Source: Thermocatellispora tengchongensis (lineage in GTDB: Bacteria > Actinomycetota > Actinomycetes > Streptosporangiales > Streptosporangiaceae). Taken from it: 64,000 nucleotides of DNA. The stretch is from positions 1 to 64,000 of the forward strand of contig NZ_JACHGN010000016.1 in assembly GCF_014202315.1 (NCBI RefSeq), in the 5' to 3' direction. Position numbers and translations under genes: made by a program. Below are positions 1-15,357 of this stretch, piece after piece (the stretch's first letter is position 1; each line of letters begins with the position of its first letter). The notes below the pieces were generated by a model, which had not been told where the DNA came from, ran no database searches, and saw only the letters and a program-made list of their open reading frames with translations.

Positions 1-168
1 ATGGTTGGTGTGCGGCGGGGAGGTGGGGCCGGCTGAATGGGCCGAAGGTCCACCCGTAGGGCTGCGAAGCAGTTCAGCCGGCGCCACCGGAAGGGCACGA
101 CGGCGCTATTGCAGGGGAAGAACGGCCGTCGCGGCGTGTTGCATCCTGCCCGGAAGGTGGGCCGTCGT

Positions 169-504
169 CTAGGGCGTGCTCGGGTTCGCGGCCGGAGTGA
201 TGGCTTGGGGTGCCGTGGTGGTGAACGCATCCAGCAGGGCGCTGATGGGGAGCGGGGCGGCTGGGGGGTAGCGCAGGCTCTTGGTGGGGTCGATCACGTA
301 TGTGATGCGCCGTCCGGTGGGCAGGCGGGTGAGGTAGCCGTCTGCGGCGAGGTCGGTCACGATGGCGTGGGCGGTGCGCTCGGTGGTGCCCATGGCGGCG
401 GCGAGATCACGGATGCGGATGTGCGGATCGCGGTGGATCAGGATCAGGGCGCGGGCGTGACGGGTGAGGAAGGTCCACCCGGTGACATCGTGGTCGCGCT
501 CCAT
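169..504 (-). CDS. Winged-helix (MarR/ArsR-like) transcriptional regulator of the integrative element
   Basis: A 111-residue protein whose first 75 residues form one winged-helix DNA-binding domain. The GWTFLTRHARALILI helix is followed by a helix-turn-helix around IRDLAAAMGTTERTAHAIV and a wing with GYLTRLPTGRRITYVI. Small actinomycete regulators of this type bind DNA in the cytoplasm; no ligand domain is visible, and the tail is rich in Pro, Ala and Thr. I start it at the ATG at 504 because homology to the family begins there; the frame stays open upstream but becomes Pro/Arg-rich low-complexity translation. It lies with the other element genes, so a role in controlling element functions is an inference. 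Confidence 0.7.
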   Translation of the reverse strand: MERDHDVTGWTFLTRHARALILIHRDPHIRIRDLAAAMGTTERTAHAIVTDLAADGYLTRLPTGRRITYVIDPTKSLRYPPAAPLPISALLDAFTTTAPQAITPAANPSTP

Positions 505-841
505 GATCACCCTTCGCGTCGGTATGACGTCAGGATAACGCGGGGGCCTTGGAGTGACAGCGCATTGAGAATGATCATGTGGGGCGGCGGCGCGTCCATG
601 GTCGGCGGGTGGGGCTGGGTCGGCGGCGGGTCCGGTTGGCGGGCGGCGGGGTTGCGCCCGTGCGGGCCGGGCGGCGCGGGCGGGACCGGCCCCCAGGCCG
701 CATGCCCGGCCGCTGGCCGATCCGGTTCGTGCGGGCGTCTCCCCGCCGTGCGGCGGCGCGGAGCGCTGCCGCCTTGATCCAGTAAAGAAGATTTGAACGC
801 GTTGGGCATGCCATGGAGGTAGATCGTCGTGATCGGCATGA
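505..841. other. Stretch without a supported gene
   Basis: Several frames are open here, but their translations are Arg/Pro/Ala-rich and match no family I recognise. One minus-strand frame would start near 840 (MPITTIYLHGMPN...), but its downstream part looks like shadow translation. It may be the leader of the winged-helix gene at 169-504. Confidence 0.3.
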
Positions 842-1012
842 TCAGGGCTGGGGGTCGTGGTGGCTGCGCATGGGGCAGTGTGGCCGTACCGGGGGTGAGT
901 CGGGGTGAGCCGTGTCGGGTGGTGCGGGTTCGTAGGGGGGCACTCCGGCAAGGGTGAGCAGCTCGTGAAGCCAGACGGCGATGTGCGGGTTCGGGCACGT
1001 GGGCGATTGCAT
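842..1012 (-). CDS. Possible small hypothetical protein, 56 aa
   Basis: A short minus-strand frame starting at the ATG at 1012, a few bases after a G-rich run that could serve as a weak ribosome binding site. The translation (MQSPTCPNPHIAVWLHELL...) has an ordinary amphipathic N-terminal half and a Pro/His-rich tail. Codon third positions are mostly G or C. Small unassigned proteins are common next to AICE regulators. I recognise no family, and it could be non-coding. Confidence 0.3.
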   Translation of the reverse strand: MQSPTCPNPHIAVWLHELLTLAGVPPYEPAPPDTAHPDSPPVRPHCPMRSHHDPQP

Positions 1013-1163
1013 GAGTCCCCCCGGTGAATCGGTGATCATCGGGGGGACCTTGTGGCGTGTGTGGAAGGGTAGCAAGCGACCGAGATCGACTGCTACGCAG
1101 CGTGCCGCCGCGATTGCTCCGTGTTGCACCGGTGCGCGGGGGGCGGTGTGCGGCTTCTGGGCG

Positions 1164-2051
1164 TCAGACACGCAGGGCGATCAGACCGGCAAGATCATCA
1201 TCATGGCCGGTGCCGGTGGTCGTCGCGACTTCGAAGCGGTCGGCCGGGGCTTCGATGTCGGTGTACTCCAGCGGGCGGCCGTCTCGGCTGAGCATGGTTC
1301 GGCGGATGATGAGGACCGGGGTTCCGCTGGGGGCGATGTCGAGGTGTTCGGCTTGGTGGGCGTAGGGCATGCGGGCGTGCGTGGCGGTGATCCAGCGTAG
1401 GGGGCCGTGGGTGCGCTCAAGGTGGGTGTAGTAGTCGGTGGGCTGGATGTGGGTGTCGATGTCGGGGATGCGCTCGTCGGTGGCCTTGGGGCCGTGGTCG
1501 GTGCCGACCAGATCGGCGATGACCTCTGAGCTGACGGCGATGACTGCGCGGGTGGGGATGTGCCGCCAGAACGCGAAGCGGTAGATGATGCTGCGGCCGG
1601 GCCGGATGCCGAGTGCCTGGGCGCTGGTGGCGTTGGCGGTCATGGGCAAGGGCTTGGCGTAGAGGCGGTCGCTGATGGGGTCGTCATTGGCGGGGCGGAT
1701 GAGTTCCCACTGCTGGGCGGTGGGGTCGTAGTTGGGGCTGAGCAGGTCGGCCGGGGTGTGGCCGGTGAGGATGAGACGGCGCTCGGGGCGGGGGCGGACG
1801 AAGGTTCCCCGGCCGTGGGCCACGTTCAGCAACCCCTCGCTGACGAGTTGGGCGATGGCCTTGCGGATGGTGGGGCGTGAGGTGGCGTATTGGGTGGCGA
1901 GTGCGGATTCGCCGGGGAGGGCCTGGCCGGGCTGGTAGTGGCCGTTGAGCAGGTCGGAGCGTAGGTAGTCGGTGATCTCGCGCCAGCGTGAGGTCTTGTC
2001 GGCTCGGGCGTCGGGGGTCTGGCCGTTGCCGTGTGGTGCGGGGTGGGTCAT
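1164..2051 (-). CDS. GntR-family (HutC/UTRA) regulator, KorSA-like
   Basis: A 295-residue cytoplasmic repressor. Residues about 22-85 are a GntR winged helix (WREITDYLRSDLLNGHYQPG, then SRPTIRKAIAQLVSEGLL and HGRGTFVRP). The rest, ending in VLIIRRTMLSRDGRPLEYTD, is a UTRA ligand-binding domain. The ATG at 2051 is preceded by a consensus AGGAGG, which decides the start; the frame is open upstream but lacks such a site. It is divergent from rep, and a repeated motif lies between them. In pSAM2-type elements the KorSA repressor controls replication and transfer genes, so control of rep and of itself is likely. The effector is unknown. Confidence 0.85.
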   Translation of the reverse strand: MTHPAPHGNGQTPDARADKTSRWREITDYLRSDLLNGHYQPGQALPGESALATQYATSRPTIRKAIAQLVSEGLLNVAHGRGTFVRPRPERRLILTGHTPADLLSPNYDPTAQQWELIRPANDDPISDRLYAKPLPMTANATSAQALGIRPGRSIIYRFAFWRHIPTRAVIAVSSEVIADLVGTDHGPKATDERIPDIDTHIQPTDYYTHLERTHGPLRWITATHARMPYAHQAEHLDIAPSGTPVLIIRRTMLSRDGRPLEYTDIEAPADRFEVATTTGTGHDDDLAGLIALRV

Positions 2052-2097
2052 GGTGGCCTCCTGATTCGCTGCGAGGTTGCTCGTTCCTCGTTTGCTC

Positions 2098-2153
2098 TTG
2101 ACAACATGTAGCACGTCTGGGAGAACGTTGTCTAGCCAACACGTAGCACGTCT
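2098..2153. promoter_or_regulatory. Divergent rep/gntR control region with duplicated operator-like motif
   Basis: Two 15-base copies differing at one position (acatgtagcacgtct at 2104-2118 and acacgtagcacgtct at 2139-2153) lie 35 bases apart in the same orientation. The first directly follows a consensus -35 hexamer, TTGACA, at 2098-2103 pointing toward rep. No convincing -10 box is visible. They are the natural candidate operators for the divergent GntR regulator, by position. Confidence 0.55.
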
Positions 2154-2187
2154 TGAGGGCCGTCTAGGCGGCCAGAGGGAGACCAGC

Positions 2188-3771
2188 ATGAGCGAGAGCA
2201 ACGGCAACGCCACTCCGCACGCTGCGGACGGCAACGGCAACGGCGGCGCTGACGGCGGGTATCCGGCGTGGATGTGGGACCTGGGCCGTCTGATCAGCGA
2301 TCCCGGATACGGCCGGTGGCGGGAGATGGTGGCCGCGATCGGCGGATGTCAGCACCCGGTGCACCTGAGCGGCGCGTCCCTGGTGGTGCACACCGGGACC
2401 GGTGAGGTGGTGGGCGAGTACACCACGAGCGAGGAACCGGGCGGGGTGCTGCTGATGGCGTGCGGCAACCGGCGGGAGTCGGTGTGTGCGCCGTGCGCGC
2501 GGATCTACCAGGCCGACACCTACCAGTTGATCAAGGCGGGGCTGTCGGGGGGCAAGGGCCTGCCGGAAGAGGTGAGCGGGCATCCTCGGGTGTTCGTGAC
2601 GTTGACGGCTCCGTCGTTCGGGGCGGTGCACACGCGGCGGGAGGTGGCCGGGCGGCTGGTGGCCTGTCGCGGGTACAGGGCGGGGCGGGTCTGCGCGCAT
2701 GGGCGTCCGCTCGGGTGCGGGCTGGTCCATGAGGTGGGGGATGAGCGGCTGGGGCAACCGCTGTGCGGGGAGTGCTACGACTACGCCGGGGCGGTGCTGT
2801 GGCAGGCACACGCGGGCGTGCTGTGGCAGCGGTTCATGGTGGCGTTGCGGCGGGAGCTGGCCTCACAGGCGGGGATGGCACAGCGGGAGTACGCGACCTG
2901 GGCGCGGGTGTCCTTCGCCAAGGTTGCCGAGTATCAGCGGCGCGGCCTGGTGCACTTTCACGCCGTGATCCGCCTGGACGGGCCGGACGGACCGCATGAG
3001 CCTCCCCCGGACGGGTTCGATGCCGGGATGTTGATGCGGGCGGTGCCTGCTGCGGCGGCGCGGGTGGAGGTGATGACACCGGACAGCGAGGTAGGGCGGT
3101 GGCGGCTGGCGTGGGGTGATCAGCTCGACGTGCGGCCGATTCTGCTGGGCGCGGATCTGGAAGGGGTGAGCGAGGAAGGGGTTGCGGCCTACATCGCCAA
3201 GTACGCGATCAAGGGCTCGGACGGGACGGCGGGGGTTGATCACCGGATCGCGTGCCGTCGCTGCAACGGATCAGGGCGGGCGCTGTCGGTGTCTCGGGCT
3301 CGGTGCGCGCGGTGCCGGGGGACCGGGCTGAAACCGGGTCTGTTGCTGGATGAGCTGCCGGTGACCGATCATGCGCGGGCGATGATCCGCATGTGCTGGG
3401 AGCTGGGGGCGCGGGAGGAGTTCGCGCACCTGCGGCTGCGGCTGTGGGCGCACATGCTGGGCTTCCGGGGCCATTTCTCGACCAAGAGCCGCCGGTATGC
3501 GGTGACCCTGGGCGAACTGCGGGAGGCGCGGGCGCGGTATCGCCGTCAGCAGGCGCGGGAGCGGGACGGGCTGCCCGCACTGGATGAGGATTCCACAGTG
3601 GTGGTCGGCCATTGGCGGTTCGCCGGGGTGGGGTACTCGCTGGGTGAGGCGATTATGGCCGAGCAGATCCGGGAGCGGGTGGAGACCGCGCGGGCCATCG
3701 CCCGGAAGAAGGAGCAGCGCACCAACCCGGATGACGCGGACGCGGGCGCGGGCGAGAGTGCGGGCGAGTAG
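2188..3771 (+). CDS. repSA: RepSA-type rolling-circle replication initiator
   Basis: A 527-residue initiator that would nick the double-stranded origin of the excised element and start rolling-circle replication. The HUH metal-binding motif is HFH at residues 256-258. A downstream YIAKYAIK segment (Tyr335 and Tyr339) supplies candidate nicking tyrosines. An N-terminal Cys cluster (CGNRRESVCAPC) and two DnaJ-like CxxCxGxG motifs from residue 356 (CRRCNGSG and CARCRGTG) suggest zinc binding. The length suits the RepSA family. I use the ATG at 2188 after AGAGGGA; upstream in-frame ATGs lie inside the operator region. It is followed by xis and int, as in pSAM2. Confidence 0.88.
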   Translation: MSESNGNATPHAADGNGNGGADGGYPAWMWDLGRLISDPGYGRWREMVAAIGGCQHPVHLSGASLVVHTGTGEVVGEYTTSEEPGGVLLMACGNRRESVCAPCARIYQADTYQLIKAGLSGGKGLPEEVSGHPRVFVTLTAPSFGAVHTRREVAGRLVACRGYRAGRVCAHGRPLGCGLVHEVGDERLGQPLCGECYDYAGAVLWQAHAGVLWQRFMVALRRELASQAGMAQREYATWARVSFAKVAEYQRRGLVHFHAVIRLDGPDGPHEPPPDGFDAGMLMRAVPAAAARVEVMTPDSEVGRWRLAWGDQLDVRPILLGADLEGVSEEGVAAYIAKYAIKGSDGTAGVDHRIACRRCNGSGRALSVSRARCARCRGTGLKPGLLLDELPVTDHARAMIRMCWELGAREEFAHLRLRLWAHMLGFRGHFSTKSRRYAVTLGELREARARYRRQQARERDGLPALDEDSTVVVGHWRFAGVGYSLGEAIMAEQIRERVETARAIARKKEQRTNPDDADAGAGESAGE

Positions 3772-4123
3772 GGGGCGTGGGGTGCGGGTCGGTGGCCGGG
3801 ATGCGCGGTGAGGGTCGCCGGGAAAAAGGGCGTGCCGAAGGCTCCACCAATGCCCTTGAAGGTGCTCTGACCTGCGGTTATGTGCGGACGCCGGCCACCG
3901 CTGACCCCTGGGTGGGTGGGCGGGCCGACGCCGTACGCGCAGGGAATGATCTTGGTTGCGCTGATGGCTGGGGGGCCTGTGGGTGCCGGGTGTGGTCAGG
4001 GGCGCGTGTAGTGGTCACCTGGCCGCACCTGGGGGCCTTTTCCCGTGGGCGGGCGCGCTTCTTCCGGTCACGCTGTTGCGGTTTCATGAGCCGTTTTCGA
4101 CTTTCAAGGAAAGGGGGTGTGTG
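3772..4123. other. Rep-xis intergenic region, no supported gene
   Basis: These 352 bases contain no frame resembling a known protein. They hold a 13-base block (ctgacctgcggtt, 3867-3879) whose exact reverse complement lies just beyond the integrase stop at 5823-5835. That could mark a recombinase or Xis arm site. The last 20 bases carry the xis ribosome binding site. Confidence 0.4.
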
Positions 4124-4306
4124 ATGTGTGGTGACGAATTCATGACGGTGGCGGAAGTGCGGGCCTACCTGCGAGTTCCTAGATCGACTTTCTATAAGTG
4201 GATGAACACGGGGCAAGGTCCGAAATCGATCCGGCTACCTAACGGGGAGCGTCGTATAAGGCGCTCGGATTTATTAGAATGGATGCAGGAAAGGCAAGCA
4301 GAATAG
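4124..4306 (+). CDS. xis: Excisionase / MerR-like helix-turn-helix DNA-binding protein
   Basis: A 60-residue protein consisting of one winged helix of the excisionase/MerR-like type: MTVAEVRAYLRVPRSTFYKW, then GPKSIRLPNGERRIRRSDLL. Such proteins bend attachment-site DNA and steer the integrase to excision. The ATG at 4124 follows AAGGAAAGGGGG and is preferred; an internal ATG at 4142 coincides with the usual start of the domain. The gene ends 19 bases before int, so the two are probably cotranscribed. Confidence 0.85.
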   Translation: MCGDEFMTVAEVRAYLRVPRSTFYKWMNTGQGPKSIRLPNGERRIRRSDLLEWMQERQAE

Positions 4307-4325
4307 GCGACGAAAGGGGTCTTCG

Positions 4326-5816
4326 GTGGAAGACAACGCGGGCAGGGTCGATGTTCAGTTCTGGAAGATCCGGCACCGGGCGGGCCGGAAGCGGCCCTAT
4401 GAACTGCGCTGGCGGGTGGGCACCACGGCACACTCTCTCAGCTTCACCACAAAGGCACTGGCGCAGGCTCACCAGGCCAAGCTGCTACGGGCGGCCAAGG
4501 ACCCGGCGACAGAGTGGGACCACGCCACCGGGGAGCCTGCCTCGTGGGGGCGCGCGCAAGCGGACTGGTTCAGCCACTGCGTGAAGTGGGCGCAGGCCGA
4601 ATGGGATCACCTGGCCCCGAACTCGCGTCGCTCCCGTGCCGAACGCCTGGCAGAGATCACGCTCTTGTGCATGCTGGATGAGTCGGCCAAAGCGCGCCGT
4701 ACCCGCCCGGATGACAAGATCCTTCGGGAAGCGCTGACCAAGTGGGCCTTCCGGCCTGGCCGTGCCGAGACTCCCCCGGAACCGATCGCCTCGGCGCTGG
4801 CGTGGCTGGCCGCGCATACCCGCCCGGTGGTCACGCTGGGGGATGCCGAACACGTCAAGGACGCGCTGGCCAAGTTGACCAAGCTCGTCAACGGCAAGCC
4901 TGCCGCGCTGTCCACGATCGGTAACCGCCGCTCGACCCTGCACGCGGCGTTGGCCTACGCGGTCACCCGGAAGATCATCGCTACCAACCCGCTGACCGCG
5001 ATCCGGCTACAGCGTCGCCGCTTCGCCGATTGTGAGGTCAGCCCGGTTGAGGTGCCAAGCGTTGATCAGGCGACGCGCATCCTTGATCAGGTGCGCACCC
5101 TGCCCGACTACCGCTCGGCTCCCAACCGGGGTCCGCACCTGTATGCGTTCTTCGCCTGCATGTTCTACGCCGGGATGCGTCCGGGGGAGGTCAAGGCGCT
5201 GCGGGTGACGAACTGCGAGCTCCCGGAGCTGGGATGGGGCACGCTCACCCTGACCGGGTCGGCCACTGAGGCGGGAGAACTGTGGACCGATGGCGGCACG
5301 CTTCAAGATCAGCGGGGGCTCAAGCACCGTTCGGTCAAGGCGGTGCGCATCGTCCCTATCCCTGCGGTGCTGGTGCGCATCCTGCGTGAGCACATCACCA
5401 CCTTCCCCCCGGCCAAGGACGGGCGGCTTTTCTACGATGGCCCCGATCAGGCCATCATCGGGGATCGTCAGTACCGGCGAGTGTGGCGCAGAGCGCGCAA
5501 GCTGGCGCTCACGCAGGCTGAGGCGGCGTCCCCGGTGGCCAAGCGGCCCTATGACCTGCGGCATGCCAACGCCTCGCTTCAGCTTCAGGCGGGCCTGGAC
5601 CCTGCCGAGATCGCCAAGCGGATGGGGCACAGCATCCGGGTTCTGCTGAGCACGTACGCTCACTGGGTCGATAACGGGCGGGATGCCGCCAACGCCAAGA
5701 TGGACGCGGTGTGGGGCCGCTCCTCCGGCTCCTCGATCAAGGCTCTGACCAGCGTAAACACGCTGGAAATCCACGGGCCAGCCACGGGCCAAGACGACGA
5801 AAACGCCGCCGCTTAG
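4326..5816 (+). CDS. int: Site-specific tyrosine recombinase (integrase)
   Basis: A 496-residue phage-type integrase that would insert and excise the element. The N-terminal part (1-60) resembles an arm-binding domain, the middle (about 155-230) a SAM-like core-binding domain, and the C-terminal half the catalytic domain. Visible catalytic residues are Arg285 (GMRPGEVKALR), Arg412 with His413 (YDLRHA, where Tyr409 replaces the usual first His), His435 (RMGHS) and the nucleophile Tyr444 (STYAHW). The start is the GTG at 4326, 19 bases after xis. It lies at the edge of the element, directly beside the interrupted response-regulator gene, the position expected of an integrase relative to its attachment site. 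Confidence 0.92.
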   Translation: MEDNAGRVDVQFWKIRHRAGRKRPYELRWRVGTTAHSLSFTTKALAQAHQAKLLRAAKDPATEWDHATGEPASWGRAQADWFSHCVKWAQAEWDHLAPNSRRSRAERLAEITLLCMLDESAKARRTRPDDKILREALTKWAFRPGRAETPPEPIASALAWLAAHTRPVVTLGDAEHVKDALAKLTKLVNGKPAALSTIGNRRSTLHAALAYAVTRKIIATNPLTAIRLQRRRFADCEVSPVEVPSVDQATRILDQVRTLPDYRSAPNRGPHLYAFFACMFYAGMRPGEVKALRVTNCELPELGWGTLTLTGSATEAGELWTDGGTLQDQRGLKHRSVKAVRIVPIPAVLVRILREHITTFPPAKDGRLFYDGPDQAIIGDRQYRRVWRRARKLALTQAEAASPVAKRPYDLRHANASLQLQAGLDPAEIAKRMGHSIRVLLSTYAHWVDNGRDAANAKMDAVWGRSSGSSIKALTSVNTLEIHGPATGQDDENAAA

Positions 5817-6036
5817 GTATAAAACCGCAGGTCAGCCCCATGATCACGCCTAGCGCGCCGGTGTGGACCACGTCGGGCGACAGCTCGCGGCAGGCCCGCA
5901 CCGCCTCGCCGCCGTCGCCGGCGGTGGCGACGACCTCGAAGTCGGGCTGGGTGGCCAGCAGTTCGGCGAAGCCGGTGCGCACGATCTGGTGGTCGTCGGC
6001 GACGACGATCCGGACCGCCGGGGCCGGGCCGCTCAT
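5737..6036 (-). pseudogene. NarL/LuxR-type response regulator, truncated by element insertion
   Basis: The frame starts at the ATG at 6036, overlapping the stop of the histidine kinase (ATGA). It encodes a clear receiver start: VVADDHQIVRTGFAELLATQ, then GDGGEAVRACRELSPDVV. After residue 57 homology stops exactly where the phospho-acceptor segment (LMD.RMP) should begin. The remaining 42 residues (HTGALGVIMG...) come from element DNA and run into the 3' end of int on the other strand. The acceptor Asp, the second half of the receiver and the LuxR DNA-binding domain are all missing. The rest of the gene probably sits at the far end of the element, outside this window. Confidence 0.85.
5817..5880. 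other. Probable right attachment junction (attR) of the integrative element
   Basis: Integrase coding ends at 5816, and response-regulator homology on the minus strand begins at about 5865. The crossover core must therefore lie in or next to this stretch, probably within the codons for the conserved SPDVV segment (about 5862-5880). No tRNA gene is visible, although most AICEs use one. The other attachment half lies left of the window, so the core cannot be defined here. Confidence 0.5.
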
Positions 6037-7304
6037 CCGGCCGCCTCGTCGCCGGCGGGCAGGTGGGCCTGGACCAGGAAGCCCCCGCCGGGGGCGGGGC
6101 CGGTGGTCAGCTCGCCGCCCACGGCGCAGGCGCGCTCGCGCATGCCCGCCAGGCCGTGGCCACCGGGGCCGGGCCGGGCGGCGGGGCCCGGGCCGTTGTC
6201 GCGGATCGACACCCGCAGATCCTCTCCGGTGTAGTGCAGCTCCACGTCCACCGCGGCGCCGGGGGCGTGGCGGCGGGCGTTGGTCAGCGCCTCCTGCACG
6301 ATCCGGTACGCCGCGAGCTCGACGCCGGGGTCCAGCTCGGCGGGCGCGCCGCACAGGATGAGGCGCACGGCCGTGCCGGACGCCGCACGCGCCTCGTCCA
6401 GCAGCTCGTTCAGCTCGGCCAGGCGCAGCCCCGGCTGGGGACGGCGGGCCGCGGGCGACGCCTCGCCGCCGGTGTCCTCGCGCAACACGCCCAGCAGGCG
6501 GCGCATCTCGGTCAGCGCGGCGCGCGCGGTGTCGCCGATCGCCGACAACCGCTCGGCCCCGGCCTGCGGCATGCCGGGCGTGGTCAGCCGGGCGGTCTCG
6601 GCCTGCACCGCGACCATGGAGATGTGGTGGGCCACCACGTCGTGCAGCTCGCGGGCGATACGGGCCCGCTCGCCCCGGGCGGCGTGCTCCAGCAGCGTGT
6701 CGGCGGCGGCCCGGCCGGCCGCGCCGTTCGCCCGCGCCTCGCCGCGCGCCCGGTGCGCGATCCCGGCCAGGGCCGCCGCGGGCGCCAGGCAGGCCAGCGC
6801 CACGATCAGCGGGGACGGGCGGGCCAGGGCCAGCACCGGGAACGGCGCGGCCAGCAGCAGGGCGGCGCGCGGCGAGCCGCGGGCGCCCAGGTGGTAGCCG
6901 GCGATCGGCTGCGCCGCCGCGCCCGCGACGGTCAGGATCTGGAAGGCCGCCAGCGACAGGCCGATCGCGGCGGTGACCAGCACCCCGGCCGCGAGCGGCT
7001 GCGCCCGCACCAGGGCGATCGGCACGGTGGTGGCCAGGGCCACCAGGGGGAGGATCACCAGCAGCAGCGCGGCGTCGCGGCCCGTGGGCGGCGGCGGTGC
7101 GACCGGGTGCGGGACACCCGGTGGCAGGCCGGTCATCCCGGGCGCGGGCCTGCTCACGGTGTGGTCGAAGCGCGCGGCGTGGGCCGTGCCCAGCGACCCG
7201 GCCAGCGACTCGGCCAGCGCCGCCACCGCCAGCACCGCCGCCGCCAGGAACGGCGTGTACGGGGCCGCGGCCCGCCACCGCCCCCATCCGGCCCATCCCG
7301 TCAT
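6033..7304 (-). CDS. Two-component sensor histidine kinase (NarL-partner type)
   Basis: A 423-residue membrane kinase. Several hydrophobic segments lie between residues 15 and 180. A HisKA_3 dimerisation domain follows, with the phospho-acceptor His221 in ARELHDVVAHHISMV. The C-terminal HATPase domain has NGPGP and GHGLAGMRER boxes. The ATG at 7304 starts the first membrane segment; the upstream open frame looks non-coding. It autophosphorylates and normally passes phosphate to the regulator encoded downstream, which here is destroyed, so the kinase is probably an orphan unless it has another partner. The divergent ABC exporter is the likely original target of the pair. Confidence 0.88.
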   Translation of the reverse strand: MTGWAGWGRWRAAAPYTPFLAAAVLAVAALAESLAGSLGTAHAARFDHTVSRPAPGMTGLPPGVPHPVAPPPPTGRDAALLLVILPLVALATTVPIALVRAQPLAAGVLVTAAIGLSLAAFQILTVAGAAAQPIAGYHLGARGSPRAALLLAAPFPVLALARPSPLIVALACLAPAAALAGIAHRARGEARANGAAGRAAADTLLEHAARGERARIARELHDVVAHHISMVAVQAETARLTTPGMPQAGAERLSAIGDTARAALTEMRRLLGVLREDTGGEASPAARRPQPGLRLAELNELLDEARAASGTAVRLILCGAPAELDPGVELAAYRIVQEALTNARRHAPGAAVDVELHYTGEDLRVSIRDNGPGPAARPGPGGHGLAGMRERACAVGGELTTGPAPGGGFLVQAHLPAGDEAAG

Positions 7305-7378: not shown

Positions 7379-7449
7379 GCGCCCGGGAGGGCGAAGATGG
7401 CTCGCGGGCATGACGACCGGGGCCCGGCCGGTGCCTAGTGTGCCGTCGT

Positions 7450-8364
7450 ATGGAAGCGACCATCGAAGTCACCGGGCTGCGCAAGCGGTTCGGGCAGGTC
7501 ACGGCGCTGGACGGGATGTCCTTCACCGTGACGCCGGGGCGGGTGACCGGCCTCGTCGGGCCCGGCGGAGCGGGGAAGTCCACCGCGATGCGGGTGATCC
7601 TGGGCCTGGACGTCCCCGACGAAGGGCGCGCGCTGGTCGGCGGGCGGCCCTACCGGGCCCTTCGCCGGCCGCTGTGCCACGTGGGGGCCCTGCTGGACGC
7701 CGGGGCGCTGCAGCCGGGGCGTACCGGCCGCGACCACCTGCTGTGGCTGGCCCGCTCCCACGGCCTGCCGGCGCGGCGCGCGGATGAGGTGATCGAGCGG
7801 GCCGGCCTGGGCGCGAAGGCCCGGCGCAGGGCCGGCCGGTACTCTCCGGCGGTGCGGCAACGGCTCGGCCTGGCCGCCGCGCTGATCGGCGACCCGCCGG
7901 TGCTGCTGCTGGACGAGCCGTTCACCGGCCTGGACGCCGGCGGCGTGGCGTGGCTGCGCGGCCTGCTGCGCGAGCTGGCCGGGGAGGGCCGGGCCGTGCT
8001 GGTCTCCAGCCCGCTGATGAGCGAGCTGGAGGACACCGCCGGCCATGTGATCGTGGTCGGCCGCGGCGCGGTGGTGGCCGACGCCGCGGTGGCCGAGCTG
8101 GTCGAGGCGGCCTCCCGCGGCCGGGTGGCACTGCGCACGCCCGCGCGGGAGGAGGCGATGACCGCCCTGGCGCACGCGGGCGCCACCGTGGCCGTGACCG
8201 GGCCCGACACCCTGACCGTCGCCGGGCTCGCCGCCGAGCGCGTGACGGCGCTGCTCGGGCGGCGGAAGGTGCCCTTCTCCGGGGTCGCCGCGCACCGGGC
8301 GACGCTGGAGGAGGCGTACATGGAGCTGACCCGCCAGGCGGCGCAGCCGGGGGCCGGGTCGTGA
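7450..8364 (+). CDS. ABC exporter ATP-binding protein
   Basis: A 304-residue ATPase of the CcmA/DrrA-like exporter class. Walker A is GPGGAGKS (residues 37-44), and Walker B is VLLLDEPFTGLD. The usual LSGGQ signature is replaced by YSPAVRQRLGLAAAL, a divergence seen in actinobacterial bacitracin/antibiotic-type exporters. The start is the ATG at 7450, where homology begins. Its TGA overlaps the GTG of the permease, so the two are translationally coupled. With the adjacent kinase it resembles BceAB/drug-sensing loci; the substrate is unknown. Confidence 0.85.
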   Translation: MEATIEVTGLRKRFGQVTALDGMSFTVTPGRVTGLVGPGGAGKSTAMRVILGLDVPDEGRALVGGRPYRALRRPLCHVGALLDAGALQPGRTGRDHLLWLARSHGLPARRADEVIERAGLGAKARRRAGRYSPAVRQRLGLAAALIGDPPVLLLDEPFTGLDAGGVAWLRGLLRELAGEGRAVLVSSPLMSELEDTAGHVIVVGRGAVVADAAVAELVEAASRGRVALRTPAREEAMTALAHAGATVAVTGPDTLTVAGLAAERVTALLGRRKVPFSGVAAHRATLEEAYMELTRQAAQPGAGS

Positions 8365-9920
8365 CCGCCGCGACGACGCCGTACCGCTCGCGCGTGAGCG
8401 GGGGCCGCGACGGGTTCGCCCAGGCGCTGCGCGCGGAGTGGACCAAGTTCCGCAGCGTGCGCGGCTGGGTGGTCACCGTCGCAGGGGCCGGGGCGCTGCT
8501 CGTGCTGGTCGTGCTGCTCACCGCCGGCACCAACGTGGCGACCTGCGGCCGGGGCGATGTGGAGGAGCCCTGCCCCGGCCCCGTGCTCGGGCCCGGCGGC
8601 AGGGCCGTGGAGGACCGCTTCTACTTCGTCCACCAGCCCCTCGACGGCGACGGGGTCATCACGGTCCGCGTGACCTCGATGAGCGGGCGCATCCGCAGGC
8701 CCGACCCCGTCGGCCTGGTGCCGGGCGTCATGCCGTGGGCCAAGGCCGGGCTGATGATCAAGGAGAGCGCCGAGCAGGGCGCGCCGTACGCGGCGGTCAT
8801 GGTCACCGGCGCGCACGGCGTGCGGATGCAGCACGGCTTCACCGAGGACGTCGCCGGGCGGCCGGGCGGGGTGTCGGCGGCGGCGCCGCGCTGGCTGCGC
8901 CTGGCCCGCTCCGGGGACACCGTCACCGGCTACGAGTCCGCCGACGGCCGGCAGTGGACCACGGTCGGCACCGCGCGGCTGGAGGGACTGCCGCGTACGG
9001 TGCGGATCGGGTTGTTCGCCGCCTCGCCCGGTGATCTGACCGTCGGCCACGGCGCGCTCGCCGGGAACACGGAGGAGCGCTTCACCGAGGTCACCGCGGT
9101 CATGGACCAGGTCGGCGTGCGGGGCGCGGGCACCGGCGGCGCCTGGAAGCAGGACGACATCGGCGTGTCCTACGAGCCCGACGGCACCCCGCACCATGCG
9201 GGCGGCCTGTCGCGCTCCGGCGGCACGTTCACCGTGACCGGGGTGGGCGAGATCGGACCGCGCCTGGAGGGCATGACGGCGCAGAACACCCTCACCGGCA
9301 CGACGCCCGCGCTGGTCGTGGTGATCGTGATCGGGGCGCTGTTCGTCACCTCCGAGTACCGGCGCGGCCTGATCCGCACCACCCTGACGGCCATGCCGCG
9401 GCCCGGCCGGGTCCTGCTCGCCAAGGCGACGGTGATCGGCGGGGTCGTCTTCGCCGCCGGGCTGGCCGGGGCGGCGGCCGCGGTCCCGGCCGGCCTGCGG
9501 CTCCTGCGGGACAACGGCAACGTGATCCTGCCCGTCGGCGCGCTCACCGAGGCGCGCCTCATCGCCGGCACGGCGGCGCTGCTGGCGCTGTCGGCCGTGC
9601 TGGCCCTGGGCCTGGGCGCGCTGCTGCGGCGCGGCGTCGCCGCGGTCATCGCCGCGCTCGCGCTGGTCGTGCTGCCCTACGCCCTGGCCACCGCCTCGGT
9701 CCTGCCCGATACGGCCTCGGCCTGGCTGCTGCGGCTCACCCCGGCCGCCGCGTTCGCGGTCCAGCAGGGCCTTCCGGAGTATCCGCAGGTCACCCACTAC
9801 TACTCGGCCGCGGGCGGGTTCTATCCGCTGCCGCCGTGGGCCGGTGTGGCGGTGCTGGGCGGCTACGCCGCGCTCGCCGTGGGCCTGGCCGCCTACCGGA
9901 TGCGGCGCGGGGACGCGTGA
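8361..9920 (+). CDS. ABC transporter permease with a large extracellular beta-sandwich insert
   Basis: A 519-residue membrane partner of the preceding ATPase. One transmembrane segment lies at about residues 33-55. A soluble region at about 84-225 follows, reading like a DUF1349/concanavalin-type beta-sandwich (WAKAGLMIKESAEQGAPYAA, then LARSGDTVTGYESADGRQW). About five more membrane segments lie in the C-terminal half. The start is the GTG at 8361, overlapping the upstream TGA. The insert lies between the first two membrane spans, so it should face outside, where it could bind a carbohydrate or cell-wall ligand. That role is inference. Confidence 0.8.
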   Translation: MTAATTPYRSRVSGGRDGFAQALRAEWTKFRSVRGWVVTVAGAGALLVLVVLLTAGTNVATCGRGDVEEPCPGPVLGPGGRAVEDRFYFVHQPLDGDGVITVRVTSMSGRIRRPDPVGLVPGVMPWAKAGLMIKESAEQGAPYAAVMVTGAHGVRMQHGFTEDVAGRPGGVSAAAPRWLRLARSGDTVTGYESADGRQWTTVGTARLEGLPRTVRIGLFAASPGDLTVGHGALAGNTEERFTEVTAVMDQVGVRGAGTGGAWKQDDIGVSYEPDGTPHHAGGLSRSGGTFTVTGVGEIGPRLEGMTAQNTLTGTTPALVVVIVIGALFVTSEYRRGLIRTTLTAMPRPGRVLLAKATVIGGVVFAAGLAGAAAAVPAGLRLLRDNGNVILPVGALTEARLIAGTAALLALSAVLALGLGALLRRGVAAVIAALALVVLPYALATASVLPDTASAWLLRLTPAAAFAVQQGLPEYPQVTHYYSAAGGFYPLPPWAGVAVLGGYAALAVGLAAYRMRRGDA

Positions 9921-11079: not shown

Positions 11080-12118
11080 CGCTCACCTCCTCCAGCACGG
11101 CCGCGGCGGGCAGCGGGTCGCGGCCCAGGAAGCGCAGCGCGTTGCCCGACAGCAGCTTGGCGCGCTGCTCGCCGGTCAGGAAGCCCGCCTCGCGCACCAC
11201 GCGCCCGGCGGGGCGCTCGCCCAGCGGGTAGGGGTAGTCGCTGCCCACCATCACCTGGTCCTCGCCCATGGTGTCCACCAGCAGCCGCAGCGCCGCCGGG
11301 TCGAACACGACGCTGTCGACGAAGAAGCGGCCGACGTAGTGGCTCGGCGGGTGCTGGGAGCGGCCGCGCACCAGGTCGCCGCGGCGGTGCCAGGCGTTGT
11401 CGGCGCGGCCGAGCCAGAAGGGGAAGCTGCCGCCGCCGTGCGCGAAGCACAGCCGCAGCGAGGACGGCACCCGGTCCAGGACCCCGCCCAGGATGAGCGC
11501 CAGGACCGACAGGTGGGTCTCGGCCGGCATGCCGGTCAGCCAGCGGGCCATCCACCGGTCCAGCCGCGGCCCGCCGGGCATGTCCCACGGGTGCACGAAG
11601 ACCGGGGCGCCCACCTGGGCGCAGTGGGTCAGGAACTCCACCACGCCGGCGTCGTCGAGGTCGCGGTCGCCGACGTGGTTGCCGATCTCGACCCCGGCGT
11701 GCCCGTTGGCCAGGCAGCGGTCCAGCTCGGCGCAGGCGGCGTCGGGGTCCTGCAGCGGCACCTGGCAGAAGGGCACCAGGCGGTCGCCGCCGCCGGCGGT
11801 GACCTCCAGGGTCAGGTCGTTGAAGATCCGGGCGACCTTGGCCGCCTGGCCGGCGGGGCGGTCGTAGCCGAAGAAGACGGGGGTGGGGGAGACGACCTGC
11901 ACGTCCACGCCGTCGGCGTCCATGTCGGCCATGCGGGTGGCCGGGTCCCAGCACTGGGTGCTCACGGGCCGGAACTCGGTCTCGCCCACCATGATCATCG
12001 CTGCGCGTTCGGAGTCGATCCGCAGCCAGGGCCAGCCGGAGCCGCCGCACAGGGCGGCGAGGTCCGGCCAGCCCTTGGGCACGACGTGGGTGTGCACGTC
12101 CACGACGGGAGCGGGCAT
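11066..12118 (-). CDS. nbaD: 2-amino-3-carboxymuconate-6-semialdehyde decarboxylase (ACMSD)
   Basis: A 350-residue amidohydrolase-superfamily decarboxylase that converts the unstable ring-opened product of 3-hydroxyanthranilate into 2-aminomuconate semialdehyde. Zinc ligands are visible: HTH at residues 9-11, a His in VHPWDMPGG, a His in CFAHGGG and an Asp in VGSDYPYP. The length matches the family. Its ATG overlaps the stop of the dioxygenase gene (ATGA), and its end overlaps the formamidase gene. It sits directly downstream of the enzyme that supplies its substrate, which removes the need for free diffusion of a compound that cyclises to quinolinate. Confidence 0.92.
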   Translation of the reverse strand: MPAPVVDVHTHVVPKGWPDLAALCGGSGWPWLRIDSERAAMIMVGETEFRPVSTQCWDPATRMADMDADGVDVQVVSPTPVFFGYDRPAGQAAKVARIFNDLTLEVTAGGGDRLVPFCQVPLQDPDAACAELDRCLANGHAGVEIGNHVGDRDLDDAGVVEFLTHCAQVGAPVFVHPWDMPGGPRLDRWMARWLTGMPAETHLSVLALILGGVLDRVPSSLRLCFAHGGGSFPFWLGRADNAWHRRGDLVRGRSQHPPSHYVGRFFVDSVVFDPAALRLLVDTMGEDQVMVGSDYPYPLGERPAGRVVREAGFLTGEQRAKLLSGNALRFLGRDPLPAAAVLEEVSGERA

Positions 12119-12642
12119 CAGCCCTTCCCGGGGTGCAGCGCGCCGCAGGCGGGGCAGGTGCGGGCCTTCTCGTCGCCGTAGAAGGCCTGGAAGACCGGCG
12201 GCAGGTCGGCCACGATGTCGCGCACCTGCAGCTCGACCTCGTGCACCAGGGCGTTGCACTCCTGGCAGTACCACTGGAACTTCTCCAGCGTGCCCTCGCC
12301 GCGGACGCGCTCGATCACCATGCCGATGGAGCCGGGCTCGGGGCGCTGCGGCGAGTGCGGCGTGTTGCCGGGCAGCACCCACATCTGGCCCTCCTTGATG
12401 TGCACCGTACGCGGCCCGTCCGGCGTCATCAGGTTGACGTGCATGTTGCCCTTGACCTGGTAGAAGAACTCCTCGTACGGGTCCACGTGGAAGTCGGTGC
12501 GCTGGTTGGGCCCGCCGACCACCATCACGATGAAGTCCGACCGGCCGGGGAACATCTCCTTGTTGTTCACCGGCGGCTTGAGCAGGTGCCGGTTCTCCTC
12601 GATCCAGCCGGGAAAGCTCACCGGCTCGGCGATGTCGCTCAC
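12118..12642 (-). CDS. nbaC: 3-hydroxyanthranilate 3,4-dioxygenase
   Basis: A 174-residue cupin that opens the ring of 3-hydroxyanthranilate with O2. The catalytic iron ligands align as His52 and Glu58 (HVDPYEEFF) and His96 (NTPHSPQ). The second, rubredoxin-like metal site of bacterial enzymes is present as Cys126/Cys129 (YCQEC) and Cys163/Cys166 (CPAC). Length is typical of the bacterial enzyme. It overlaps the upstream deaminase gene by four bases and the downstream decarboxylase by one. Confidence 0.95.
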
Positions 12643-13070
12643 TGCGCTCCTCCTTGCGGCAGCAGGGCCACGGCCTGCATCTCGATCAGAAGGTGGGGGT
12701 GGGGAAGCTGGTGCACCGCCACGGTGGTGCGGGCGGGGCCGTTCTCGTCGAAGTGCTCGGCGTAGACCTCGTTGTATCCGCCGAAGTCATTCATGTTCAC
12801 CAGGTACGTCGTGATCTGCACGATGTCGGGCAGGCCGGCGCCGACCTCGTGGAGGATGTCGCGGATGTTGCCGATCACGGCCCGGGTCTGCTCGCGGATG
12901 TCCAGGCTGGTGGTGCCCATCTCGTCGGCGTGGGCCCCGGCGATGGTGTTGTCGGGGCGGCGGCTGGAGGTGCCGGAGACGAAGGCGAACCCGCCGGCGA
13001 TCTTGACGTGCGGGAACCGGCCGCGCGGGGTGGCCTTGCCGGGCACCAGCCGGGCCTGTCCGGCGCTCAC
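12639..13070 (-). CDS. nbaF: 2-aminomuconate deaminase (RidA family)
   Basis: A 143-residue RidA/YjgF-fold protein ([15 protein letters not shown], then [21 protein letters not shown] and [15 protein letters not shown]). In the Pseudomonas nba and amn pathways this subfamily hydrolyses 2-aminomuconate to 4-oxalocrotonate and ammonia. Here it lies between the dioxygenase and the oxalocrotonate decarboxylase, which supports that role over generic imine deamination. Its start overlaps the decarboxylase stop by four bases. Confidence 0.88.
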
Positions 13071-13849
13071 GGCGCGGTCCCCAGCGTCACGCTGCCCAGG
13101 CGTTCGACCGAGGCGCGTACGCGCGAGCCGGGGGTGAGCGGGACGGCGGCGGTCGCGGCCCCGGCCAGGAACACCCAGCCCTCGCGCACCCGCACCCCGG
13201 CGCGGCCCGCCAGGCGCAGGCCCTCCTCCAGCGACAGGCGCGGGTCGCCCAGGATCGCGGCGGTGGAGCCGGTCTCGGCCACCTCGCCGTTCACTTCCAG
13301 CGTGACGGCCAGGTCCTCCAGGTCGGGGGGCACGGGCTGCCAGGAGCCGATCGCGAACCCGGCCGCGGAGGTGTTGTCGGCGATGACGTCGGCGAGCTGG
13401 AAGCGGAAGTCGGCGTAGCGGGAGTCGATCAGCTCCAGGGCCGGGGCGACCGCGCGCACCGCCTCGGCGAAGGCGGCGGGCGGCTCGCCGGGCTCGGGGG
13501 CGCGGGCCATCAGGAAGGCGATCTCGGGCTCGGCGCGGGGGTGGATGTAGCCGGCGAGGTCCACGACGCCGCCGTCGGGCACGCGCATGCCGTCGGTGAG
13601 CCGCCCCCAGATCACCTCGTCCACGCCGACCTGGGCCATCTTCGCCCGGCTGGTCAGCCCCATCTTCAGCCCCACCAGGCGCTCGCCCCGGGCCAGCCGC
13701 CGCTCGATCAGCGCCTCCTGCACCGCGTAGGCGGTGGCGGCGTCGATGCCGGCCTGGCTGGCGACCTGCGGGATGGGCGCGCCGGCGAGCGCGGCCTCGT
13801 CCAGGCGCGCGGCGAGCTCCCGGACCTCCTCTGCGGTCATCGCGATCAT
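13067..13849 (-). CDS. nbaG: 4-oxalocrotonate decarboxylase
   Basis: A 260-residue member of the hydratase/decarboxylase family of meta-cleavage pathways. The [19 protein letters not shown] segment and [12 protein letters not shown] are closer to 4-oxalocrotonate decarboxylases than to 2-oxopent-4-enoate hydratases. It would make 2-oxopent-4-enoate from the deaminase product. ATG 13849 overlaps the dehydrogenase stop; ATG 13840 is an alternative nine bases in. No hydratase or aldolase for the next steps is in this window, so the pathway must be completed elsewhere. Confidence 0.85.
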
Positions 13850-15357
13850 GACAGCTCCACGCACACGTTGGTCATCTCCGAGTAGAAGTCCAGGGAGTGC
13901 ACTCCGCCCTCGCGGCCGATCCCGGACGCCTTCACCCCGCCGAACGGGGTGCGCAGGTCGCGCAGGAACCAGGTGTTGACCCACACGATGCCGGCGTCCA
14001 GCCCGGCCCCGGCGCGGTGGGCGCGGCCGACGTCGCGGGTCCACACGGTGGCGGCCAGGCCGTACTCGCTGTCGTTGGCGAGCGCGAACGCCTCCTCCTC
14101 GTCGTCGAAGGGCGCGATGTGGCACACGGGTCCGAAGATCTCCTCCCGGTTGGTCCGCGCGTCCTGGCCCAGGCCGGTCAGCACGGTCTGGCGGACGTAC
14201 GCGCCGCCGTCGCGGGCGTCGCCGAACACCGGCGCGTCGCCGCCGGCCAGTACGGTGGCGCCCTCGGCGCGGGCCAGGTCGTAGTAGCCCAGCACCTTCT
14301 CGCGGTGGGCGCGCGAGATCAGCGGCATGGTGGCGGTGGCCTCATCGGCGGGCCAGCCGAAGGCGGCATCGGCGGCGCGCTTGGCCAGGCGCTCGGCGAA
14401 CTCCTCGAAGACGGGCCGCTGCACGTACAGCCGTTCGGTGCACAGGCAGACCTGGCCGCCGTTGGTGAAGCTGGAGCGGGCCGAGCCCGCCACGGCGGCC
14501 TCCAGGTCGGCGTCGGCGAACACCAGCCCGGCGTTCTTGCCGCCCAGCTCGAAGGAGACCGCCTTGACCCCGTCGGCCGCGGCGTGCATGATCGCGCTTC
14601 CGGTGGCCGACTCGCCGGTGAAGGTGATCGCGTCCACGCCCGGGTGGCGGGTCAGGTGCTCGCCCGCCGAGCCCGGCCCGAAGCCGTGCACCAGGTTGAA
14701 CACCCCCTCCGGCACCCCGGCCGCCGCCATCACCTCGGCCAGCAGGGTCGCCGAGGACGGGGTCTCCTCCGAGGGCTTGACCACCACGGCGTTGCCGCAC
14801 GCCAGCGCGGGCGCGACCTTCCAGGTCAGCAGCAGCAGCGGCAGGTTCCACGGCACGATGACCGCCACGACGCCGACCGGCTTGCGCACCGAGTAGTTCA
14901 GCGCCCGCCCGCCGCCGGGGGTCACGGTGGTGAAGGATTCGGCGGGGGCGGTGGCGGCGATCTCGGCGAAGGCGCGGAAGTTGGCCGCGCCGCGCGGGAT
15001 GTCCAGCGTCCTGGCCTGCGCGACCGGCTTGCCGGTGTCGGCGACCTCGGCGGCGACCAGGTCGTCGAAGCGGCGGTCCAGTTCCTCGGCGACGCGGCGC
15101 AGCACCGCGGCGCGCTCCTGCTCGCCCATGCGTCCCCACGGGCCGCGCAGGGCGCGGCGGGCGGCGGCGACGGCGGCGTCCACCAGGCCCGCGTCGGCCT
15201 CGGCCACCTCGAACAGGGTCTCGCCGGTGACCGGGCTGACCTTGGGGAAGGTCGTGCCGGTGGCGACGAACTCGCCGCCGACGAAGTTGCGCAGCAGGCC
15301 GGGCCCGCCCGGGGTGCGCCCGGACAGCAGCTCGGCGGGCCAGCTCATGGCGCTCAC
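13846..15357 (-). CDS. nbaE: 2-aminomuconate-6-semialdehyde dehydrogenase
   Basis: A 503-residue NAD-dependent aldehyde dehydrogenase. Conserved features are Asn171 in VPWNLP, Glu270 in SFELGGKN and the catalytic Cys304 in [12 protein letters not shown]. It oxidises 2-aminomuconate semialdehyde to 2-aminomuconate. The [10 protein letters not shown] segment is typical of the AMSDH/HMSDH subgroup. It overlaps both neighbours by four bases (kmo upstream, decarboxylase downstream) and so is translated as part of the chain. Confidence 0.92.

Follow-up and report, generated by a model that had tools for sequence, protein, structure and literature searches.

How a two-component response-regulator (RR) gene came to end inside its receiver domain, directly beside the integrase gene of a mobile element, is the question raised by one contig end in the draft 11.65-Mb genome assembly of the actinomycete Thermocatellispora tengchongensis. 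The window, as the analysed stretch is called here, comprises the first 64,000 bp of contig C16 (G000:C16:1-64000), and its left edge is the end of the assembled contig. From both junctions, both halves of the gene, the core between them, a second event in the same genome and whole genes in relatives, it is very probable that a pSAM2-type element integrated site-specifically at a conserved core in a NarL-type RR gene and separated the two halves of the receiver domain.

A preliminary description of this stretch had noted a receiver that is intact for 57 residues and then passes into element sequence beside the integrase gene, which was confirmed, with the junction at the core 5865-5871 (Table 1). 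The core lies 48 bp beyond the stop codon of the integrase gene (ending at 5816), and the last 42 residues of the fused open reading frame (ORF) are an antisense reading of the element end and of the 3' end of the integrase gene. The Response_reg match of 5866-6036 (E = 7.3e-07) falls just under the Pfam cut-off because the domain is cut. In a DNA search with positions 5600-6036, the regulator match began at window positions 5862-5897 in the 10 plasmid records listed of 28 and never extended deeper into the element. The cut lies at D-V-V|L-M-D, directly before the phosphoacceptor Asp, with which the V-V-L-M-D block ends; the block aligns with the L-M-D of VraR. Such a junction is not a matter of chance, because a second element gives the same junction and the missing half of the gene adjoins the other end of the element.

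To locate that half, the distal part of the regulator from a relative served as query against the genome; its best match, C31:108402-108905, lies 2.3 kb short of the contig end and beside the element's other end. The remaining receiver and the LuxR domain thus stand next to the other attachment (att) copy, where the preliminary description had proposed to look for them. Outward from the element, C31 reads ...GTGCGTCCTTTT-GTGGTGC-TGATGGACGTGCGC..., corresponding to the element end, the core, L-M-D-V-R, the rest of the receiver and the GerE/LuxR domain. Stub and distal half together comprise the receiver domain and the LuxR/GerE helix-turn-helix (HTH) by which a NarL/FixJ response regulator is recognized. 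In a comparison set that contained one genome of the genus, 24 of the 100 family genomes searched, the own genome included, had a match to the adjacent kinase at E <= 1e-70. At all 23 loci found in this way in relatives (23 genomes), stub and distal half are adjacent in a single frame with zero gap, at 58-83% and 73-91% identity, respectively, and the truncated regulator was not met at any of these loci without the element, so that the earlier interpretation also withstood this comparison. In the five relatives whose wider surroundings were examined, the ATP-binding cassette (ABC) membrane protein, the kinase and the regulator occur together in every case, and no shared gene order beyond these three was seen.

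The same genome contains a second insertion of this architecture. A related element, whose integrase is 89% identical, stands at the end of contig C1 and interrupts another pair of histidine kinase (HK) and RR genes, likewise after D-V-V; the two regulator stubs are 38% identical. The distal half of the second regulator is C19:2739-3233, 2.7 kb from the start of C19, behind an element end that is 94% identical. Its kinase has matches in 5 of 150 genomes, again with the own genome included; the distal half is found in all four kinase-bearing relatives (72-81% identity) and the stub in one ORF with it in three (67-71%), but the fourth relative gave the distal half (76%) and no stub match. The second copy has the core GTCGTGC on both sides and the window copy has GTGGTCC and GTGGTGC; because the third base of the core (C or G) matches, the halves pair as C16-C31 and C1-C19.

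The core consensus GTSGTSC, 7 bp long in the second copy, encodes V-V(-L) in the receiver motif D-V-V-L-M-D. The sequence GAYGTSGTSCTSATGGAC occurs 13 times in the host genome, on each occasion at the equivalent place of a NarL-type RR gene (reversed-pattern control, 0), and with the two occupied genes the host has at least 15 candidate sites, of which two are used. Since two regulators were cut at the same codon by one integrase lineage, the conserved codon block is the probable target, which suggests that the element aims at a sequence common to a large regulator gene family. A broader proposal can be offered tentatively and with some doubt: the integrase lineage targets the D-V-V-L-M-D codons at 15 or more sites per host, and each insertion splits a kinase from its regulator and supplies the LuxR half with a start codon, possibly creating a phosphorylation-free regulator.

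The view that an integrative element with a replication protein and an integrase of the actinomycete integrative and conjugative element (AICE) type had cut a protein gene was borne out. The integrase gene (4326-5816) adjoins one att site, the element encodes its own replication protein of the group formed by RepSA, RepAM and Prim-Pol (RepSA, E = 4.3e-156), and direct repeats corresponding to attL and attR flank it (GTGGT(C/G)C in the window copy, GTCGTGC in the second), on separate contigs. The integrase, xis-like and RepSA frames are all open in the window copy. A GntR regulator and a small xis are also carried by pSAM2.

Table 1. Features of the element, the cut regulator and the adjoining genes in the window
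Feature	Position	Strand	Support or remark
Right-hand part of integrated pSAM2-type element	1..5864		Continues off contig start
GntR/UTRA regulator of the element	1164..2051	-	Pfam GntR 2.1e-21, UTRA 3.1e-10
RepSA-type replication initiator	2188..3771	+	Pfam RepSA 4.3e-156; NCBIfam RepSA 6.9e-147, below equivalog cut-off
HTH_17/AlpA protein, 60 residues, probable excisionase, open frame	4124..4306	+	Pfam HTH_17 1.1e-14, AlpA 9e-05
Tyrosine integrase, 496 residues, open frame	4326..5816	+	Pfam Phage_integrase 9.1e-07; 89% identity with C1 copy
Fused ORF, 99 residues: stub plus 42 residues from element DNA	5737..6036	-	ORF list, alignment
Attachment core GTGGTCC (regulator codons V56-V57 and one further base)	5865..5871	-	Partner on C31 is GTGGTGC
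Response-regulator stub, residues 1-57, ending D-V-V before phosphoacceptor Asp	5866..6036	-	Pfam Response_reg; alignment to 23 whole relatives
Sensor histidine kinase, open frame, partner of cut regulator	6033..7304	-	HisKA_3 4.3e-20, HATPase_c 1.2e-12
ABC transporter ATPase, divergent from kinase, open frame	7438..8364	+	ABC_tran 6.1e-23; NCBIfam lantibiotic protection and DrrA below cut-offs
Probable ABC transporter membrane protein, start approximate	8361..9920	+	ORF 7950-9920; position and sequence; homologue beside HK-RR in 5/5 relatives

Several observations weigh against site-specific insertion into RR genes. In this draft assembly, neither element is contained in one contig: its ends are on separate contigs that break in repeats, and flanks could have been swapped if the two elements recombined; in addition, the core of the window copy carries one mismatch. 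The ORFs tested in the 2.2 kb and 5.9 kb that are assembled included no FtsK/TraB-type transfer gene, the middle of the element being off these contigs; both relatives' elements examined have FtsK_SpoIIIE (E = 5e-12 and 4.7e-11), with the transfer gene in mid-element. A third left end on contig C29 (G000:C29:16323-16341 = L132:6323-6341) has a core, GTGGTGC, that leads into a fragment resembling a Mutator transposase (E = 0.0011, below cut-off) and not into an RR, so that the site specificity of the element is not exclusive to RR genes; no integrase was present in the 18 kb read around this end. It was one of 15 places matching the left-end pattern with three or fewer mismatches in the own genome, of which three were exact (C31, C19 and C29) and 12 had three mismatches; these 12 look like chance, since the reversed-pattern control gave 59 matches. 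Finally, a split RR beside the integrase gene was seen in none of 63 stretches around related integrases outside this genome (blastp of the regulator sequences, E <= 1e-3), a test with flanks of often only 1.5 kb that a short divergent stub could escape. The 63 stretches include places listed under two identifiers, and L136 and L137 adjoin in one genome. RR-like matches occurred in four of them: a full-length RR about 2 kb away in L162, and weak receiver-like matches in L032, L037 and L039, which also contain a tRNA gene. Among the first 29 integrase stretches, 16 contain a tRNA gene.

Related integrases with the same target were sought in 100 relatives and 341 family genomes, GTDB contigs, viral contigs, plasmids and phages. 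The GTDB contigs gave no integrase match with a single-sequence query and 14 loci with an alignment, the viral contigs gave no match by protein or by end pattern, and plasmids and phages (10 and 89 records) gave integrase matches only below 60% identity. Integrase relatives at 54-60% identity are present in Spongiactinospora, Herbidospora, Nonomuraea and Acrocarpospora; because they were not found in RRs, the targeting of RRs looks like a specificity change in the present lineage. Among the elements with such integrases, that in genome G157 is flanked by the 14-bp direct repeat GGTTTTCCACAGAA, whose left copy, as judged by eye, lies outside the gene, just after a stop codon; from end to end, the elements of G157 and G121 measure roughly 14-17 kb. 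A 17-bp flanking repeat of the G223 element is a candidate only, and none was resolved for the G121 and G137 elements. Left-end DNA gave matches in 89 of 341 family genomes (own included), mostly over an internal stretch (query 51-249), and only two rows, both from the own genome, extended to the core; with two candidates scored per genome and the C29 copy not picked up, the search is evidence neither for nor against additional RR insertions.

Based on these structures, a possible course of the insertion and its consequence for the regulator were proposed. Recombination would take place between attP of the element and the short core within the NarL-type RR gene, parting residues 1-57, which hold the acidic pocket, from the phosphoacceptor Asp, the remaining receiver and the DNA-binding domain of LuxR type. 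Phosphorylation of the regulator by its kinase would then no longer be possible. We infer that both contig ends are parts of a single insertion and that the integrase encoded at 4326-5816 performed it. The acidic pocket of receiver domains is needed for phosphorylation. The phosphorylation site is absent from the stub, and the acidic pocket from the distal fragment; most simply, and most likely, the cut regulator has lost its function. No complete partner of the kinase is retained at the window locus, and a paralogous pair on C13, whose HK shows 72% identity over 239 residues and whose RR shows 82% identity to the distal-half query taken from a relative, could buffer the loss. The earlier interpretation as a whole is partly supported. 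As it had held, the kinase may be orphaned and the regulator may control the adjacent exporter.

Insertion could alternatively have altered the regulator instead of destroying it, if a start codon of the element yielded a fragment from the Asp to the LuxR domain that binds DNA without phosphorylation. On C31, a GTG lies in frame four codons ahead of the core (GTG-CGT-CCT-TTT-GTG-GTG-CTG-ATG-GAC), and the second copy has the same GTG and an ATG one codon further up (ATG-GTG-CGT-CCT-TTT-GTC-GTG-CTG-ATG-GAC). The resulting ORFs have 182 residues in the window copy and 173 in the second, and the LuxR/GerE domain is complete in both fragments (E = 5.8e-20 and 4.1e-17), so that a fragment of about 182 residues could be made from the element-supplied start. 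However, a consensus scan of 801 bp around either left end gave no sigma-70-like promoter (0.1 expected by chance), a single weak terminator-like site directly precedes the core in the second copy (chance expectation, 0.4), inspection by eye revealed no ribosome-binding site, the half receiver may not fold, and a start in this frame has a 1 in 3 chance of occurring; an altered regulator is accordingly considered unlikely. Less likely still is the reversible switch envisaged in the preliminary description, in which regulated excision would restore the regulator and its control of the exporter. It would resemble active lysogeny, as of the comK phage of Listeria, where an element lies inside a regulator gene that exact excision would restore; excision of that phage and its regulation are known, whereas regulated excision of the present element is a proposal. 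The open integrase and xis-like frames of the window copy, which may still excise, and the relatives, in which the coding sequence is whole without an insert, agree with a switch. The second copy does not: about 2.85 kb, comprising RepSA and most of the GntR gene, is absent at the corresponding place and its xis frame is shifted, as expected of decay and not of a maintained switch. Judging from its genes, that copy probably cannot excise by itself and looks fixed, not switching, and nothing connects excision with a signal. That the junctions are an assembly chimera, or the stub a pseudogene unrelated to the element, is hardly credible, because the junctions, although near contig ends, lie about 2.2 to 5.9 kb inside the contigs, the two events share one architecture and the gene is whole in relatives. 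Site-specific insertion with probable loss of regulator function is preferred.

Some further observations concern the element ends and the remainder of the window. An 11-bp block at window 5854-5864 and at the corresponding ends on C31, C1, C19 and C29 varies between copies within almost identical flanking sequence, which is reminiscent of coupling sequences. An S-adenosyl methyltransferase family gene is located near the left end of both elements (L096:15747-16162 and L097:3-830; PF04672 on the C31 copy); the two genes are 98% identical over 296 bp, and both contigs break there. Positions 1-800 of the window, holding a small HTH-like ORF, recur on C1 (at 340.8 kb and at the contig end), at the start of C45 and, in part, at that of C5, which is probably why the contig breaks at the window start. 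Positions 12118-15357 carry catabolic genes, probably of the 2-aminomuconate route, that encode 3-hydroxyanthranilate 3,4-dioxygenase and 2-hydroxymuconic semialdehyde dehydrogenase above the NCBIfam cut-offs and Rid-family and 2-oxo-3-hexenedioate decarboxylase-like proteins below them.

Integrative elements usually pick sites that survive insertion. If the proposed targeting is true, an element that aims at the codons most conserved in a large family of signalling genes would find many sites per genome at the cost of one broken regulator each, the gain of an element would be a direct cause of two-component-system rewiring, and the integrase could offer a predictable, multi-site target. Elements in protein genes are already known; searches of the open-licence literature yielded no AICE reported to lie in a response-regulator gene.

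The preliminary description had also stated that AICEs mostly use tRNA genes. Surveys agree on this point, but protein-gene sites are not rare; in one Streptomyces population, insertion sites of integrative elements were 36 tRNA genes, 14 protein genes (14 of 51) and one intergenic site, with rlmN and its 11-nt repeats as an example of a protein gene (PMC9513070). The Frankia AICE Faln2929, which uses a serine recombinase, disrupts an endonuclease gene, and pSAM2 and other AICEs at tRNA genes share a RepSA-type replication protein and a tyrosine integrase beside att with the window element (PMC3218068). Contrary to the AICEs at tRNA genes, the window element has its site in mid-gene, within a receiver domain. 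PAISt of Streptomyces turgidiscabies likewise integrates site-specifically in a protein gene, but its 8-bp palindromic site is at the 3' end of bacA and not in mid-domain (PMC4057263). The rlmN elements and Faln2929 resemble the window element in their short direct repeat or protein-coding target; each of these two examples concerns one gene, whereas the insertions described here concern a codon block shared by at least 15 paralogous regulator genes of one genome, two of which are occupied.
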